A DNA stretch of 64,000 nucleotides, taken from NCBI GenBank assembly GCA_004794785.1, contig SJOL01010424.1, positions 464,439 through 528,438 of the forward strand, read 5' to 3'. This document shows positions 10,255 to 63,086 of this stretch, piece after piece (the stretch's first letter is position 1; each line of letters opens with the position of its first letter). The DNA is from Opisthorchis felineus. Its lineage: Eukaryota; Platyhelminthes; Trematoda; Opisthorchiida; Opisthorchiidae. Both the position numbers and the translations under genes were made by a program. The notes beneath the pieces were generated by a model. It was not told where the DNA came from. It saw only the letters and a list, made by a program, of their open reading frames with translations, and searched no databases.

Positions 10255-10385
10255 TGGACGATCCACATAGAGTTGACGGAAACTGGGGGACTGTGCCTAC
10301 CTGATGAACCCCAAGAAGAGCGAAACTGATCACGGGCTGTCGAAGAGTTCTCAGCAACCTTATTACCACTGTGTTACGTCTAGTT
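10255..10385 (+). mobile_element. Hammerhead repeat family, ribozyme fragment
   Basis: B segment with CTGATGA at 10301-10307 and GAAA at 10322-10325, and cleavage triplet ATC. Stem II is ACCC/GAGC and the two closing pairs of stem I are lost (ACGGGC against GCCTAC). The core bases remain but helices are weakened, so it is probably inactive. Downstream the family sequence continues through CTGTCGAAGAGTTCTCAGCA. Confidence 0.75.
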
Positions 10386-13967: not shown

Positions 13968-14402
13968 GCTTGTACTAATCCAAACAAGCAATCTTTCGCG
14001 CCGTACACTCATTTGCACACTAATTTGGTTGTCGTGGGAGACTCAACTGGATCGGCTCCAGCGAAATCTCTCGTTCTTGATTTTCTTCTTCAGCTAAATG
14101 TTCTGCACAAGACTGCCTCATTTTCAGTTGCTACGATAGTTGAGGTATCTTAGGGTATTTTTTTTTGACAGGGTAAACTATTCATAAGGTTGCTGAAAAC
14201 TCTTCAACAGCCCATTATCGGTTTCGCTCTTCTTGGGATCCGTCGGGCAGGCACAGGCCCCGAGTTTCCGTCAATCCGCTTGAACTCAAATTACAAGCAA
14301 TGTGTGAAATACATTCATCTGCATACTAATTTGGTTTTAACGGGAGGCTCCACTGGATGCTCGTTTATGGTTAGTCGTGTTCAGTGGAGCGGTTTTCAGT
14401 AA
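13968..14402 (-). mobile_element. Hammerhead repeat family, A-B-A direct dimer
   Basis: Two A segments (about 13995-14150 and 14300-14400) flank one B segment (about 14180-14290) in the same direction, sense on the minus strand. This is a permuted dimer as expected from a circular or tandem RNA intermediate. The ribozyme at about 14211-14255 is dead: the CTGATGA box reads CCGACGG. An oligo-T run at 14159-14166 interrupts the A-B boundary. Confidence 0.8.
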
Positions 14403-20936: not shown

Positions 20937-21385
20937 CCGAAATACATCCATTTACACACCAATTTGATTTTAACGGGGGACTCAACTGATTCCCAGCTGA
21001 ATCCCTCATTTATGATATTCTTCAACTGACTGTGCAGCACAGAGCTCGCCTCACGTTTTTTCTTATACGATATTCGAGATGTTGCAGTATATTTTCTCGA
21101 AAGAAAACAACTCACAAGGTTGCTGAAAACTGGCAGCAACTGGAATGTAAGGTGACCTTTGTACAGGACGTTCAGTTAAGGAGTATCGGCTGGGATTCAG
21201 TTGAGTCTGCCGTTAACACCAAATTATATGTTGCGAAGCAGTAGAGTTAGCGAATTGTATCCAACTTAGGTTAAAGCAGAACACAAGCTTGACGGCAACC
21301 AGTGGACTGAACCCACATGATGAGCCTGAAGTGGAAGGGCTAAACCGGTCGTGGGCTGTTTAGGAGAGTTCAGTAACCCTCTGAG
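20937..21385. mobile_element. Hammerhead repeat family, fold-back pair, decayed
   Basis: The left half (20937-21132) is minus-sense and ends near AAGGTTGCTGAAAAC. The right half (from about 21187) is plus-sense and runs from the A tail into a B segment. The ribozyme at 21316-21356 reads ATGATGA and TAAA instead of CTGATGA and GAAA, although GGTC and GTGGGC survive. Stem II is expanded and mispaired, so it should not cleave. Confidence 0.75.
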
Positions 21386-24068
21386 TAGTTTCCCTCAAGA
21401 AACTAATAGTTTGTTCGGTACTCAGGGCCTTTCGGATGGTAGGCTTGCTAATGGAACTTGTGAAGACAACGTAGAAGAGGTCGTTCTAGGGATCTTTGTT
21501 TGGCATAGAAAAGCTGCGCCAGCCATCTAAACCTTGAACAAATAAATCTTAGATTTCAATCTCTTTTGAGTGTCTGTAAGAGGTTATTGTGAAGCCTCAA
21601 GTCGGGTTTTGCCGTGACTGGTGAAATCCACGCCTTCCTCGCGATGAAACGCTCCGGAATTTTTCACTAGGTGTTAAGAGGAATATCTTTGGCTGGTCTG
21701 ACAGTAATATCACAGTTTTCCTATTTAAATCTCAACTGAATGTGATGTTGACATTTTCTAAAGGGATGTCAAACTTGCGCCATATTATCCTAGGTGTTGT
21801 AGGTGTCCCCTTCAGATTTCTATGGGACCACCGAAATTAAGGACGGGCCATCCTATCGATTTCTTTTAGGCGTCTTATGATAAGACTGCGGTGGTTTTGG
21901 GCATATTTATCCCAGCTTGGGTTCCTGCAACTGACGCTTTTTCCATCTTCTTTAGGTACACTCTGCGAGTGCTTGATGGCTCTGCATAGGAGAAAACCCT
22001 CTTATACATTGAAAAACGGCCAAACACCGACGTTGAATGCAGTGCAAAACTGATTTTATAACACGCAAATATTAGGTAGACTCAAATCCAAGAAACTTTT
22101 GGACAGCTTACGTCAGGCGAAATAATGGGTGATTTTTATACAAGCGCCGTCCATCAGGCTTTAGTAGAATTGGTACAACCGAAAGTCAGGAAGAACGCTG
22201 AAGGGTTCACATGCATGACTTCAAGATATCCAACAGATTGCTCAAAAATCTCTGGAACCACTAATATTAAAGACCAGTCTGTTGGAACTCATCAAGATAG
22301 TTATCAAAACTAGAATGAGAAATACCCGGTGCCCTATTGGACTGTGCACTATAGGTCCGAAACACACAAAAGCAATTTATTTTACTGGTCGGGAGCTGGT
22401 TTATTCTGGCTAATGTAGGCAATACTTATGAGGTGGAGAGTTCCCAAGGAAAGTTGACGTGCCTGTTGCCCAAGTAGAAGGACGTTTTTATCGACCGATA
22501 TACAGTTAATTGATAAAATTTGTCCTTAATATGGATTGCATACTTTTACTGGGAGGTTGAATTGTTCAAATAGAATAGAATAAGAGACAAAACAGGGACA
22601 CTTCACCCAAAAAATTTCAGGCTGTTCATTTACCGAGCAGTAATTTGTTGAAACCTGGGTGAATGATTACAAATATATTATTTGGAGTGGGCATCTGAAC
22701 GGAAGTCTAAGGGCGGTCCGCCCTTGAAGGTATCCATTCAATGGAAGACCTGCAATGAAACAGAAGCCTCAAGGAATAAAACAATGATTTCCTCTTTTGA
22801 TGACCTTTCAAAAGAGGGGGGTAGATGTCGCATCACTGAAGTGAAGAATTAAGCAACTTCTACGAACAAACTATCCCAGATGGATCTCCCGGGGTTTTCT
22901 GCCGCCGTAACCTCATTCGAGGTTTCAGTTCTGGAATGAGAAAAGTAATAAATTTGTTTGCAAATGAGTGTATTTCGCTAATTTAGTGCCGTTTTGGTTC
23001 AAGTAGAACATAAGGTTGACGGAAACTCGAGGACTGCGCCTACCTGATGAGCCCCAAGGAGGGAAAAACCGGTCGTGGGCTGTCGAAGAGTTTTCAGCAA
23101 CCTTAAGAGTAGTGTATTACGTCAATAAATTGGCTGACTTTTTGTGAGTATTGCTTATAAAAGTAGAAACTACAAGCTTATTTTAAAGGCATGAGTTTCA
23201 CTCTGAATGTAGATTCTATGTTGTACTGCTGTCTTTGGCCTTGTGTGTCAAAAAACCATAATTACAATAAAGCGAGTATATTCCATTACCTCCTCAGAAC
23301 GAACGCGCGATAAGAAATGCCAGATTCCAAGGACGAGTACAATGAGATCCGAAAAGTCCCTCTAAATGGTATATGATTGGTGTCTTATGGGGGACGACGG
23401 AAGTCGCCCTCTGCAGGTCAAAATTGCCTCCATGAGACTTGCTACCATATAGTCCCTGCTGAAGAAGGCCCATTAACTACCTTCCCCTGCCAAGAGTGTT
23501 TTCACCAAAGTGAATGGGCGAAAGCCAGTGTTAGGCGCTATAATCTGGCTAACGGTCAGTCAGCTGTCCGTCAACTGAAGTTGCGTAAGACCTGATTCCA
23601 AGCCAATAGCGGCGAGAGCAGAAAGCAGGTTTGATGATTTTTGGGGATGAGAATACTACCGGAATCTAAAAACCGTAACGACTATTCTGCCCAACCGTTC
23701 TCTGCCTGTTCCTTACTGTCATGCACCTGAGTGTGTAGGTGCAATCTTGAACAAAGGCTGACTAGCGCTGGGGATGCAATTCGTAACCGCCCCCCATAAA
23801 ACTTTAATGACAGTGCCTCTTACGTGCAATTCCGTTCAAAATATGACGCAATCCGCGCTACCATATTGGCTGAAGTGACAAGAATAGATCAATAACTAGC
23901 AACTACCACACTCATCAGTCATCCCAGAATCTCTGTTTGTCCGAGTGGTCACTACTTTAAACGAAGCACTGTTTACATTGATGCCCCACCTTATTTCCGT
24001 CTTTCTCCTTCGATAAGTGACTCTTCTGAATTTGTTTGTATTGTGAGGAGGTTTGTGAATCTTTGTGG
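21386..24068. other. No recognisable gene outside the repeat at 22950-23123
   Basis: ORFs such as 23377-23595 have no recognisable domain. Confidence 0.55.
22950..23123 (+). mobile_element. Hammerhead repeat family, A-tail to B joint
   Basis: This plus-sense copy starts within the A tail (GCAAATGAGTGTATTTCGCT) and runs across the monomer joint into B. The ribozyme at about 23038-23069 has CTGATGA (23044-23050), GGTC and GTGGGC, but GAAA has become AAAA and the last pair of stem II is lost. It shows that a monomer runs about 85-90 nt from the tail to the next cleavage site. Confidence 0.8.
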
Positions 24069-24312
24069 AGATTTCGTCCTGTAAGTGAAGCCAATCTATG
24101 CTGAAAAGCCGAAAAGCACTGCACAGCTGTTTCATCCTTATTAGGAATCATTAGCAGTGCGCATCTCACTACTAGCCAGGAGGTCGCGGGTTCGAGACTC
24201 TCCGGAGTTTCGTGACATTCGCACTGCTGATGATTCCCAATAAGGATGAAACAGCTGTACAGTGCTTCTCGGCTTTTCAGCGTAGATTGGCTTCACTTAC
24301 TGGACGAAATCT
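24069..24312. repeat. Long inverted repeat (hairpin) with a tRNA-like B box in the loop
   Basis: Arms 24074-24169 and 24212-24307 are inverted copies, 96 bp each with about 8 mismatches, extending a few bases further outward. The 42-bp loop contains GGTCGCGGGTTCGAGACTCT, which resembles a polymerase III B box (GGTTCGANTCC) as in tRNA-derived SINEs. Arm sequence such as GGATGAAACAGCTGT and CAGTGCTT resembles a trematode interspersed repeat I recall, but I cannot confirm it. It lies directly downstream (minus sense) of the LINE remnant. Confidence 0.8.
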
Positions 24313-25630: not shown

Positions 25631-25652
25631 AAGACATCAGTTGCACGAAATT

Positions 25653-26044
25653 AGCGAAGTAGACTCATTTGCAAACAAATTTGGTTTTGCGGGAGACTCA
25701 CCTGGAAACCAGCTGAATCTCTCGTTTATAGCGTTTTCAAGCAATTTGGGTTCAAGTAGAACATAAGTTTGACGGAAACTCGGAGACTGCGCCTACCTGA
25801 TGAGCCCCAAGAAGGACGAAACCGGTCGTGGGCTGTCGAAGGGTTTTCAGCAAGCTTATGAGTAGTGTATTACGTCTATGCATGTATAGCAATATCTCGA
25901 ATATCGTGCCAACTGAAACATGAGGTGGCCTGGTGCAGCGCATTCAGTTGCCTAGAAACATCGTAAACGAAAGATTCAGCTGGGTTCCAGGTGAGTCTCT
26001 TGCAAAACCAAATTTGCTTGCAAATATGTGTATTTCGCTAATGT
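25653..26044. mobile_element. Hammerhead repeat family, complete fold-back element
   Basis: This is the best example of the family architecture. The left end (about 25653-25740) and right end (about 25958-26044) are inverted copies of an 85-90 bp segment with few differences. Inside, a plus-sense partial monomer runs from TTGGGTTCAAGTAGAACATA through an intact hammerhead ribozyme to the right terminus. No ORF is present. Its left edge abuts the degenerate LINE that ends near 25640, so it may have inserted into, or next to, that LINE. Confidence 0.85.
25791..25833 (+). ncRNA. Hammerhead ribozyme, type I, core intact
   Basis: The catalytic core is complete: CTGATGA at 25797-25803, GAAA at 25818-25821 and the cleavage triplet GTC ending at 25827, so self-cleavage is predicted after 25827. 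Stem I inner helix pairs GCCTAC with GTGGGC (6 bp including one G-U). An outer stem I helix pairs GGAAACTC upstream with GGGTTTTC downstream, leaving an internal loop typical of natural type I hammerheads. Stem II is GCCC/GGAC around loop CAAGAA with one C-A mismatch. Stem III is only CC/GG, the minimal form known in metazoan and Penelope-associated hammerheads, which often need a dimeric RNA to cleave well. It lies inside the fold-back element at 25653-26044. Activity is inferred, not shown. Confidence 0.85.
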
Positions 26045-26550
26045 TGACTGTTGATATTTGTGTTGTTATTATAGAACAACGCATAGAGCAGGACATGCAT
26101 GGAGAAGAATAGTATTCCAGTGTGAAATACAAATTTAAGGATATATCTTAGAAGAACGCAGTCCACTTACTTCAAATAAGCTTGACCAAGCTACTCAAGA
26201 GAGAAAATTTTTTTTCTATTTTTACTTTTCGTTTTTAAATCCATACCCTTTTTTAGCATTCTTGCCGAGCATTCAAACTATCAAAGGGATGTTTTACTCT
26301 CCGTAAGTTCGTGGGGCATATGTAGATGGGTTTCCCAAGCACTACGAATGAGGGATTTGGAGATTCAGTACCTCACGGATTGATGCTCAGGTTGGAATTA
26401 AAATATCGCTATGCGCCATGCACTGGAGCATATAAGCTTAAGTCCAACAGGATAAAACATATTTTTGAACATTCTTTTCAGAAACATATTTTTTAGCCGA
26501 TTGTTCGGGGAACTGTTTCTAAAAAGATAACTTCCCGAACAGTTCCAAAC

Positions 26551-26805
26551 ATTAGCGAAATACACTCATTTGCAAACAAATTTGGTTTTGCGAGAGACTC
26601 ACCTGGAACCCAGCTGAATCTCTCGTTTCCAGGCAACTGAATGTGCTGCACCAGGCCGCCTCATTTTTCAGTTGCTACGATATTCGAGATATCGCGATAC
26701 ATGTATATTCGTAATGCACTACTCACTGCTGAAAATTCTGCGACAGCCGACGACCGGTTTCGCCCTTCTTGGGGCTCATCAGGTAGGCGCAGTCCCCGAG
26801 TTCCA
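26551..26805 (-). mobile_element. Hammerhead repeat family, 5'-truncated monomer
   Basis: Single minus-sense copy: the A terminus at 26551-26630 leads to the B segment with an intact ribozyme (26746-26788), and identity stops abruptly at about 26805, just beyond stem I. The internal sequence is nearly the consensus, so this is among the youngest copies seen. Confidence 0.85.
26746..26788 (-). ncRNA. Hammerhead ribozyme, type I, minus strand, core intact
   Basis: Read on the minus strand, the order is GCCTAC, CTGATGA, stem II GCCC/GGGC (perfect 4 bp) with loop CAAGAA, GAAA, minimal stem III CC/GG, cleavage triplet GTC, then GTCGGC. Stem I inner helix has five of six pairs; one position is changed from the family consensus. 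All core nucleotides are present. The element is cut off just beyond the ribozyme at about 26805, so the outer stem I helix is partly lost. It has the best stem II in the window. Confidence 0.82.
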
Positions 26806-28089
26806 AACATTTTCCACTTAGTCAGACAGCTGATTCATTTTTTGAAGGAATCACTTGCAGAGTATTTTTGTATTCCACTTTGAACATTCAAAAACGGCTT
26901 CAGAAAGTTCTTTACTGAAGCGTTTCGCAGTAATCCCCAAGGTCTCTCCGGTAATTATGAGGAAATTTAGTTGATATACTTTTCCATTTTGGCCTGACAG
27001 TTATTGCAAGCGGTATGTCCCTGGTCCTGTGCAATAGGACAGCTTTAAATAGGTCTTAACGATATCTCGATGAATGACAGCCAGCAAGGAGACTAGGACT
27101 ACTGACTTTAACTCATTTTTCATCAGACTGTGGGTCCAGCATGTGCCCACGAATTACAAAATACTAGTAAAAGTAATTCTGTCCAATGATTGATTTCCTG
27201 GCAGATTTCTAGCAGACTTCCAGCCTGAATAGTGACGTATTAGGCATGACAAGTTCTACTCACAGATGGTAATGTTTGATTAGCTAATTTTATCACGTCT
27301 GTAAACTAGCGTTCGTAGTGTCTTGAAGACTGACGAAGCGGCTTGATTTCAGACAAAATGGGCGAATGTTCGACGGCTGTGACTCATAGCGGAGCCTGTA
27401 AGGGGGCTAGAAATGGAGTTCCAGGTTGTTAGGGTTCAGAAACATAAACATGAACTAAGTTAAGTGTTGACGAAGCACAGCTCACGTTGCCGGGGTTTGC
27501 ACCAAGGCGTAGTTGGGGCGGCACCTGTCCTTAGTTAGTTGTTCTGGGATATCAGCATCCTTGAGACGATTTGCATGAGAATAACAAAGTGTGACGTTCC
27601 GTTTGGAGCTAGAAACATCCAAACGTATCAAAGGTATCAACTAAAGCACGCAGTCCTCCTAGCATTAAGTCACACGAGTTTCTAGTGCGATGCGTTGACC
27701 TTCACAAAACGATTGTGCCGAATAGGATGAAAACAAGCAATAACAAAAATGGGTAGCGGTCTGAATGGAAAGATGTTTTTTTTCACACCTAATCCAGTTG
27801 TTGCGACGGCACCCATAATCAATCGGAATTCAACGTTGTAAAGTAATTTTAGACAATTTTGTACCTAACAAAACAAGATTTAAATCAGCTCTAACTCTAA
27901 CCTTTTCTTGAAACTACAAGAGTGAGATGATTTGCTTTTCCCTCTCCATTGATTTCCAAGCCCCGGTGGTAATGTTCATTTCCGGTCGGGGAATCATATT
28001 CCATAGTATATTTGGTTGTTCCTAGCCTCAAACATCTGGTTTGTTTGTTTTGTGCGTTATGTTCTTCCCATGTGCGAACTAAACGACTT

Positions 28090-28602
28090 GGAGCGGAACA
28101 CTACTCACATGGTTACTGTAAACTGCTCGACAGCGCACGACCAGTTTCGCCATTCTTCGGGCGTATCAGGTAGGCACAGTCCCCGATTCTTCGTCAAGCT
28201 TATGTACTACTTGAACCCAAATTGTACTAACTTGGCTAAATCCGCTCATTTGCACACCACTTTGGGTTCGACAGGAGACTCAACTGCCTATTTTATGATA
28301 TTCTTCAACTAATGTTGTCGTACAAAGACCGTCTCATCTTTCATTTTTCGCGCCCTTCGAGGACTGTACCTACCTGATGCATCCAAGGAAGCTCGAAACC
28401 GGTTGTGAGTTGCCGAACATTTTCCAGCAACCTTAAGAGTAGTGCTTCTTCGAGAAATTGGGCTGCGATACCTCGAATATCATAGTAACTGAAACATTCA
28501 GTAGCCCTTATGCGGCACATTTAGTTGAGGAATTTCACAAACAAGAGATTCAGCGGGATTCATTTGTGTTTGCCAATAGGTGTATATTGCCGATGTCAAA
28601 AT
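28090..28602. mobile_element. Hammerhead repeat family, B-A / B-A fold-back
   Basis: The left half (to about 28345) is minus-sense B then A; the right half (about 28346-28602) is plus-sense B then A. Both ribozymes are damaged: the left one (about 28132-28176, minus) reads CTGATAC, and the right one (CTGATGC at 28374-28380) has a collapsed stem II, although GAAA is kept. The two halves are joined inside ribozyme-proximal sequence. Confidence 0.75.
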
Positions 28603-34530: not shown

Positions 34531-36913
34531 AATAATGACTTAATCTAACCCTTCAGCATACCAATGATTACGGTTTCAATCACACTTCCATCTAGTAGCT
34601 AGGTTTCATTTTTGATCAGTATGGTCGTCATTCTGACCCTGATAACACTGATGCCAACTCCTACTGATGCAACTTCACTCCGCGCGTTTTTTTGGGCAAG
34701 TTAATCGCTACACCTCGTTGTACCAGCTATGCTTGTTATGTGCGCACCAATTAACAAGCTACCGACTAGAAATACGGAATGTTACTGGTCGGATTAGTAC
34801 CAAAAATCCTTTGATTATGTCAATTCGATGTTAACGTCGGATCTTCTGCCTACACACTTTGACCCATGATTACCAATTATCGTTACAGTAAATGGATTTA
34901 AGCACAGTGTCGGTGCTGTTAGTTCACATGTGTATTCCGATGGAAGCGAAAAAGCCATAATGCGCGTTGTCCGTCCGTTACCAGCAGCTAAAAGAAACTG
35001 TGGAGAAGTTGAAAAGGATGTACTTGAAAAAGTTTCGCAGGACGGTTTGTGGACGCCTTCTTTCTTTCTCAGCTGACTATCAGCTTCTTTTAACAATATA
35101 TGGTCCCAAAGTGGGGATTCCAGACTAACTGCTAGACGATTACAACGTTGAGCAATTACCTTGCTTGGCTACAATTTCAGTATCCAGTTATGGATAAACT
35201 GGTGCTCATTCAGGACTGATCAGCTTAAACAAATTACATGAAAAAGATTCTTTGGTCGCTTCCATAGCTTTCAGAAAAGACGTGAACCCTCAGTTGGGGA
35301 CGCTTTTGTACTTCTCAGTCGCTTTCCATAATAGTAAGGGAGTTAATGCCGTAGATTTCCTGTTGCCAGAAGCCCTCGTACATATACAAATAATCTTGGC
35401 TTGCGCGCAAGTTCACAGGCGACTTACATTTATTTCAGCACCAAGATTCTCTGTCTAATGTGAACGCAATTCCTTTTCGGAAGCTAAAGCACAAGTCTTA
35501 TGAATGCACTTACCCGTAGTTATGTTTGCTTAGTGCATGTTAAACAATACGTCACCGCCTGTTCACTTTGCGCTGTTGCTGCCATTATTCAACCTAAAAT
35601 GCCTGTTGTGCCTTCGCCCAGTCTAGAACACTCACGGTCAAGACTTCCTATTGAATTTGCGACTCCAGCTGATGCTTATTGTTGCTTATGCTTTTTCTAC
35701 CTGGTCTGATGCTTTTCTATCAATTGCCAATTTAGTGGCGTCACAATATCCATCGCCCAACGTCTGTTTGGTCAGTTTAGCTGTTCATAACCATCGCTCA
35801 CCGAAAACGAAGCATAGTTAATCTCTTTTATTTTTCAGTAGTTTTGTCCTCAAAGCGGACTAGCTATAAAACAGTTCCTGGGTGATCGAAAGGAGAGGTT
35901 GAATAACGTATACAGTGCTGTCAGGTTTGATGTACCGACCCCAAAGCCAGATGAGTGCCAGTCTGGTCCGAAAAGTGTCATCTAACCATGAACATCGGGT
36001 AGATCTGGCTTGCTATCGTTCAGGTATCAGAAGATTAGCATAACGACCCTTATTCGCAACAGTCCTTGGACCACTCAACTTATCGCTGAATTCCCGGTGC
36101 AGCTACTGGCCGTTTTAGGAGTTTCTGCGTGAAAGGAAATCCCATCTACCAAAGGATACCTCCGTTGTCCTGCTCTTTTTTGATACCGACCAGGAAAATG
36201 GAGCCCTTTTTCACCAATGCAGGTGATTTAGGTCCTCCGAAAAATCTCCCAAGCAGCTGTACGCAGGCAGAATGCACGCAATGGCTAAACTGAGTTCACA
36301 TTCCTCAAACCCAAACTTTCTCACGGGGTTAACTCGTTAACTGTTCTGTTATAGATAAGCTGTTACAGTAATTTTTGTAAACTTATTGGATTCTTAGTTA
36401 TGAGCTATCCGGTTAAAGTGCACTTTCGACTTTGATCGAGCGAGCTGCGTCAGTCAAGTTGAAGAAATTATCGAGTTTGGCTTGGCTGAATCAATATATG
36501 GTCAGTTACAAATGCGTGCTCGACAGAAGTGAAAAAACGTGAGACAGAGAACCCTTCACTCATGACAGTAGTTGTGCTGTCCAGCGCGTAGGAGTAGTAT
36601 ACCTTGTTATTACATGACAAACGAATCACCGCTATTCGTTGTACAACCCCCAACTAGGTAGGCGTTTTGTAGCAGATTTCGTCCAAAACGACAGTACCAA
36701 ACTAGTGCAAGCAGGCTACATAAAGCTGCTTGATCTTATCTGTGAGTACTACGCAACTCATACCACCTATTAAGTGATGACCTCTACCTTCCGCAGAATA
36801 AGTGACAGCGATTTACCCCCTTGCTTATTCTGTGTATTTTCTCAAATGTGTGTTTGGAGCAACCCCAGTCAACGGCAAAATGTTCATTAGGATTTCTGCT
36901 TGCTTTCTTCCAG
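34531..36913. other. Sequence directly upstream of the first visible TFAP2 exon
   Basis: Probably intronic, because the exon at 36914 lacks a start codon. No promoter, CpG-dense island or AP-2 N-terminal coding sequence was recognised. Confidence 0.5.

Positions 36914-63086
<26,173 letters not shown>

Follow-up and report, generated by a model that had tools for sequence, protein, structure and literature searches.

What is the repeat that carries a hammerhead-like motif twice within 25653..26805 of this stretch of the Opisthorchis felineus genome, and what machinery spread it? We analysed the whole 64,000-nt stretch (the window) together with related copies elsewhere in the assembly. The repeat is a 307-bp non-coding unit, and we think it is probably an animal retrozyme that is non-autonomous and owes its spread to Penelope-type machinery.

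The hammerhead and its palindromic stem III

The interval contains two copies of the repeat, one forward and one inverted, with one hammerhead apiece. Unit positions u1-u307 correspond to window 25735-26041.

25651..26041, plus strand: foldback copy; an inverted u214-307 (25651-25744) overlaps a complete sense unit u1-307 (25735-26041)
25762..25860, plus strand: hammerhead with compound stem I; stem II contains a C-A mismatch; cleavage is predicted after 25827
26552..26802, minus strand: second copy, with its 5' end truncated to about u43 and its sense 3' end at u307
26731..26804, minus strand: hammerhead of the second copy; core at 26752-26782
26541..26553, plus strand: 13-bp target duplication of the second copy, left copy, AGTTCCAAACATT
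26799..26811, plus strand: the same duplication, right copy; its first bases overlap the truncated end of the element

A target duplication was also looked for at the foldback copy 25651..26041, and none was found.

The repeat has the features of a type I hammerhead: CUGAUGA...GAAA...UH, helices I and II, and an open-ended helix I. The earlier note had described a dispersed repeat family encoding such a ribozyme with a minimal stem III, and the sequence supports that description, with corrections to stem III, to details of the helices and to the intactness of the cores. The CTGATGA, GAAA and GGTC that it reported are present (CTGATGA at 25797-25803, GGTC ending at 25827), and the inner stem I, GCCTAC/GTGGGC, pairs (25791-25796 with 25828-25833). 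The outer stem I also pairs, GGAAACTC (25774-25781) with GGGTTTTC (25841-25848), but the 3' strand had been given as GAGTTTTC, a spelling that belongs to other copies and not to the copy at 25791. Outside both of these is an additional 10-bp helix, CATAAGTTTG/CAAGCTTATG (25762-25771 and 25851-25860), so that stem I is compound, with helices of 6 (inner), 3, 8 and 10 bp (outer), and the hammerhead is at the tip of a long rod. The 4-bp stem II exists as claimed and is perfect at 26746, but has a C-A mismatch (GCCC/GGAC) at 25791. The copy at 26746 has a T-C mismatch in the inner stem and an outer 5' strand that is one base short, and it lacks the outer 10-bp helix because of its truncation. In undecayed copies elsewhere, stem II (GCCC/GGGC) and the inner stem I are complete, and the 8-bp outer helix has one C-A mismatch.

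Stem III is a loopless palindrome, ACCGGT. The two base pairs proposed earlier are indeed a minimal stem III, but CC/GG without a loop cannot form in one molecule. Without a loop in the palindrome, the two C-G pairs require two ribozymes, that is, a dimer; the only single-molecule alternative is an A-U pair closing a CCGG tetraloop. We found no stable intramolecular stem III, and the geometry requires a dimer. A dimer would accordingly be expected for hammerhead action, as with axolotl HHR_Amex1. A stem III of this kind predicts that cleavage needs two units, and it would link processing to tandem transcripts.

Comparison with Rfam models, which are independent of the family, placed a hammerhead (Hammerhead_HH9) first at both copies, but below the gathering cut-off. 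The scores were 31.9 and 28.4 bits (E of 1e-5 and 1.4e-4 when 1.5 kb was searched), and an undecayed copy elsewhere scored 36.0 bits (E 1.6e-7), all under the curated cut-off of 52. A search of the whole window at the gathering threshold gave no matches.

The motif recurs across the window. CTGATGA-N(8-20)-GAAACCGGTC occurred three times, compared with 0.00 expected from 100 shuffles. A covariance model of the family gave 19 matches at E<=0.01, and 12 of these had E<1e-10, in agreement with the previous count of about a dozen copies. The model was trained on 54 rows, eight of them from this window, and those eight score high by construction because they are in the training set. The 54 were aligned from 62 family rows retained after two short matches were skipped; seven identical or near-identical rows and a chimeric row (window 53844-53957) were left out. 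Read by eye, the core letters are intact and in register in four of the 12 strong copies (25797, 26776, 53853, and within 10262-10366). A looser regular expression for the core passes six of the 19 matches, including 23005, in which G12 is A, and a second family at 24195. The copies outside the interval are as follows.

53788..53892, minus strand: core letters intact, stem II weakened
10262..10366, plus strand: core letters intact
23005..23109, plus strand: core damaged, G12 to A
28104..28208, minus strand: decayed
14181..14286, minus strand: decayed
21278..21385, plus strand: decayed
42645..42748, plus strand: decayed
38505..38581, minus strand: internal deletion
44050..44154, plus strand: decayed
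54843..54950, minus strand: decayed

Nothing pointed to selection on the ribozyme: conservation was 93.9% in the core, 91.3% at paired positions and 92.7% elsewhere. Covariation was uninformative (88.3% of cells paired, compared with 88.2% in shuffles).

A different hairpin element is located at window 24069-24312, with 101-nt arms that are 92% complementary. Its plus arm contains a hammerhead-like GCACTG-CTGATGA-TTCC-CAATAA-GGAT-GAAA-CAGCTG-TA-CAGTGC, which scores 26.9 bits against Rfam Hammerhead_1 (cut-off 34). Related pieces are found at ten other genomic loci and at window 37570-37629.

The 307-bp unit and the form of its insertions

The unit is non-coding, within the 150-450 bp typical of retrozymes, and has a GC content under 50% (46.6% in the commonest unit) and a type I hammerhead. 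It contains no open frame with a reverse transcriptase (RT) plus GIY-YIG. The computed fold of the circular unit is -100.0 kcal/mol (z -4.0), and none of 200 shuffles reached so low an energy. This fold includes stems I and II, and three bases beside stem I pair across the core. In a 113-nt piece, the hammerhead-competent fold is 2.6 kcal/mol above the minimum.

The family covers 3,973 bp (6.2%) of the window in 32 segments that are 72-94% identical to the commonest unit. A SINE would have a tRNA-like head or a poly(A) tail; no tRNA was found in the window, and the element ends examined had no poly(A). Two long open frames on the plus strand, 36806-37495 and 42962-43636, could be exons of a host gene; neither has a Pfam match above cut-off, and a protein search with a 179-aa part of the first found no homologue. 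The window also contains a (TA)16 microsatellite at 46536-46567.

The unit is abundant in the genome (630 Mb, 1,848 contigs). The 37-nt core occurs exactly 1,940 times (960 and 980 on the two strands), and a reversed control of the core had no exact matches in the same genome. Separate insertions are fewer, since some of the 1,940 cores are in suspect arrays (see below); 100 of them, as listed, group into 69 clusters. Among these 100, neighbours on the same strand are spaced by 307 bp (13 pairs) or 293 bp (nine pairs), suggesting two subfamilies; an example of the 293-bp period beside the 307-bp one is at L026:2793-3178. A 396-bp query gave 9,950 first-look candidates in the genome, and 40 of them were scored.

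Sense 3' ends were concentrated at two sites of the unit, site A (u298-307) and site B (about u140). Window copies had 31 sense 3' ends, and 25 of these were at u298-307 (14) or u124-151 (11), a count that omits one segment end at an internal unit junction. With random placement (20,000 draws), the number at these sites averaged 4.1 and never exceeded 13. None of 32 5' ends was at either site; the 5' ends scatter. We then have the same pattern in 51 elements (clusters of at least 150 bp, with both flanks present and no N nearby), in which 66 of 85 sense 3' ends were at u300-307 (41) or u130-153 (25). The genomic loci were the best matches to a window copy and so favour well-kept copies; the window counts are independent of this bias.

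Many of the insertions are flanked by target duplications of variable length. Exact duplications of at least 7 bp, spanning 7-15 bp, were found at 24 of the 51 elements (2.3% in a control with mismatched flanks), and none of that length at the remaining 27. Duplications of at least 9 bp flanked 12 elements (control 0.3%), and those of at least 12 bp flanked seven (control 0.05%). Two further insertions in the window illustrate the forms that occur.

22950..23121, plus strand: head-to-tail junction copy (u276-307, then u1-140); sense 3' end at u140
22947-22954 and 23124-23131: 8-bp duplication AATAAATT flanking the junction copy
53792..54130, no single strand: foldback copy, inverted u1-124 followed by sense u83-303
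53785-53794 and 54134-54143: 10-bp duplication ACATTAGTAA flanking this foldback copy

Many insertions share one layout: a duplication, an inverted unit starting from u307, sense u~215-307, u1-~140, and the duplication again. The middle junctions of foldback insertions differ from locus to locus, and we take each to be newly formed because of this variation. Junctions between units also occur in diverged copies, for example at 22950-23121 and at L010. Among the 100 listed cores, all eight pairs of opposite-strand neighbours within 600 bp are in the order minus then plus, so that both sense 3' ends face outward. The insertions thus have the traits of Penelope-like elements, with an inverted terminal unit, a tail-like end and a target duplication of variable length, and the connection to retrozymes and Penelope elements suggested earlier is borne out by this anatomy.

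A LINE-type enzyme might instead have mobilised the same retrozyme, with inversions arising by twin priming. LINE insertions are 5'-truncated, have duplications and are occasionally inverted, and this genome is rich in LINE-like reverse transcriptases that have long open frames (judged from the best 150 PF00078 matches, of LINE and LTR types by reading). However, the usual LINE pattern includes neither two fixed internal 3' ends nor outward-facing pairs, both of which are found here, and none of the element ends examined finishes in poly(A) or a simple repeat. We regard mobilisation by a LINE-type enzyme as unlikely.

Penelope elements and tandem arrays of the same genome

The genome contains a large Penelope family. 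We found six GIY-YIG loci (L061-L066), and pieces of L062, L063, L064 and L066 were above the cut-off of the GIY-YIG profile. One piece of L064 scored 26.5 bits against RVT_1, below the cut-off of 29.6, and two other pieces (from L063 and L064) matched neither GIY-YIG nor RVT_1. A 333-bp query from a Penelope end gave 3,155 first-look candidates, of which 40 were scored.

In this family (L063, L064, L066 and L087-L106), 3' ends are fixed and may carry a further tail of about 36 nt; inverted ends also occur. By hand count, similarity in 10 of 20 copies taken from the 40 scored stops at or near ...CCAACGACCAT, and the other 10 run on through the tail. The stop is 76 nt past the CTGATGA of these elements where no indel intervenes; in the retrozyme, site B is about 78 nt (72-91) past the unit's own CTGATGA. 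No counterpart of site A was found at the Penelope ends. L064 has an inverted tailed end at its start and a 12-bp duplication, ATATTTGAAGAA, and L089 has a 16-bp duplication with two mismatches. We rejected the motif at the start of the Penelope frame (CTGATGATGTC...GAAA) as a hammerhead, as Rfam recognised it at none of three ends (of the 20), and we used it only as a landmark.

The tail-like end, inverted ends and duplications would also be explained if the unit were a pLTR shed by some unseen Penelope family, and not a separate retrozyme; minimal hammerheads do occur in Penelope pLTRs, according to the part of PMC7761336 available to us. However, the one Penelope family examined has different ends, and no sequence is common to the unit and loci L061-L066. 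There was also no match to the unit among those listed for L031-L066, although these loci are mostly inside LINEs or LTR elements, and in each DNA search bearing on this reading 40 candidates were scored. A shed pLTR appears improbable to us.

The assembly also has tandem arrays of the unit, and these are best treated with caution. Many contigs carry arrays in which perfect 307-bp units stand head to tail, up to 10 or more in number. At 13 loci, 84 of 96 full units are letter-identical, but the outermost segments differ by 3.7% (188 of 5,081 bases), and by as much as 14% in single segments; some arrays adjoin runs of N. Identical interiors with diverged edges are the pattern of gap filling by an assembler; L074-L086 are probable cases. 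Long perfect arrays would suggest rolling-circle reverse transcription. We rejected the 10-unit perfect arrays as one-event insertions, since the comparison of interiors and edges indicates gap filling, and we did not use array length or youth as evidence. Probable gap-fill arrays call for caution about retrozyme copy numbers taken from draft assemblies.

The arrays and the 293-bp spacings might be taken to indicate that the family is mainly a tandem satellite with a hammerhead by chance, but the arrays show the gap-fill pattern and the window copies are all dispersed, with duplications, making a satellite very unlikely. A MITE (a DNA transposon bounded by terminal inverted repeats) in which the hammerhead-like sequence is incidental could be suggested by copies such as 25651-26041, which have an inverted arm at each end. 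It was rejected as scarcely credible, given duplications of no fixed length (7-15 bp), unequal ends (one is often at u~140 and not at the arm end), scattered 5' ends, tandem junctions and variable middle junctions.

Relatives of the unit and a proposed route of spread

The closest known systems are the metazoan non-LTR retrozymes, whose hosts are stated to include platyhelminths (Cervera and de la Pena 2020, PMC7229834, in the part available). As described there, they consist of non-coding units of about 150-450 bp that carry a type I hammerhead and have a GC content below 50%; tandem junctions occur, the duplications exceed 4 bp, and Penelope elements co-exist with them, all as found for our unit. 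In contrast, the copies of our unit are mostly dispersed, 5'-truncated or foldback, and its fixed 3' ends and opposed units are not described in that part of PMC7229834. The same text describes hammerhead repeats of axolotl and newt with a unit of about 330 bp and dimer activity, and in axolotl HHR_Amex1 a single-pair stem III with a palindromic tetraloop; their sequence and hosts are different, and the palindrome here is CCGG. By its description in part of PMC6155905, schistosome Sm-alpha is likewise a trematode non-autonomous element with a type I hammerhead.

The unit also resembles Penelope elements themselves. Minimal hammerheads of Penelope-like elements reportedly cleave as dimers. They resemble the unit in the near-absent stem III and the expected dimer, whereas the unit lacks a frame for RT or endonuclease, and its stem I is long and compound. 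The passages available on Pen2a_Av (PMC3846280) and PAc (PMC11167929) describe an inverted terminal unit, an optional tail, 5' truncation, partial tandems and a 9-10-bp duplication, as in the insertions studied here. The unit differs in being non-coding and in having end sites about 140 nt apart, compared with published tails of 30-40 nt and the tail of about 36 nt in the Penelope family of this genome. The Penelope anatomy in PMC3846280 includes an inverted pLTR, a tail and the 9-10-bp duplication, and the Penelope enzyme is described in PMC11167929 as cleaving both target strands and extending them from internal RNA sites; so far as these partial accounts go, the insertion form of the unit matches both. 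A literature search found no account of this repeat family or of foldback retrozymes, which does not prove that there is none.

Judged by its sequence, the repeat fits a new family of a known class, an animal retrozyme with a predicted dimer-type hammerhead. We consider it probable that the unit is non-autonomous and was spread by Penelope-type machinery, which would have acted in trans on unit RNA. In the route that we propose, head-to-tail transcripts would pair through their ACCGGU palindromes and cleave after u93, giving 307-nt monomers that would be ligated into circles. A Penelope reverse transcriptase-endonuclease would cut both strands of the target, and each target 3' end would prime a cDNA within the RNA, at either site A or site B. 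Joining of the two cDNAs mid-element would generate the foldback form and the target duplication.

It is possible, and we suggest it tentatively, that two similar RT start boxes (ATGAGT..GT..ATTWCG, just before each 3' site) let the Penelope machinery in trans prime both strands on one RNA, with the cDNAs then joined. The similarity between end sites A and B is weak, and 312 of 7,828 pairs of unit segments (4%) score as high.

The mover of animal retrozymes is left open in the available part of PMC7229834 ("LINEs or PLEs among others"), which names Penelope a "strong candidate" because it co-exists with retrozymes. Here, the insertions of the unit themselves bear the Penelope signature, and the genome that holds them has a large Penelope family. 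We believe that their anatomy is unusually direct, although not conclusive, evidence for Penelope-driven spread, and it makes the claim testable, as priming by a Penelope protein at u140 and u305 of the 307-nt RNA. If the suggestion about the start boxes is correct, the hammerhead would be at a set distance from an RT start site, and the insertions would be a structural record of Penelope spreading animal retrozymes.
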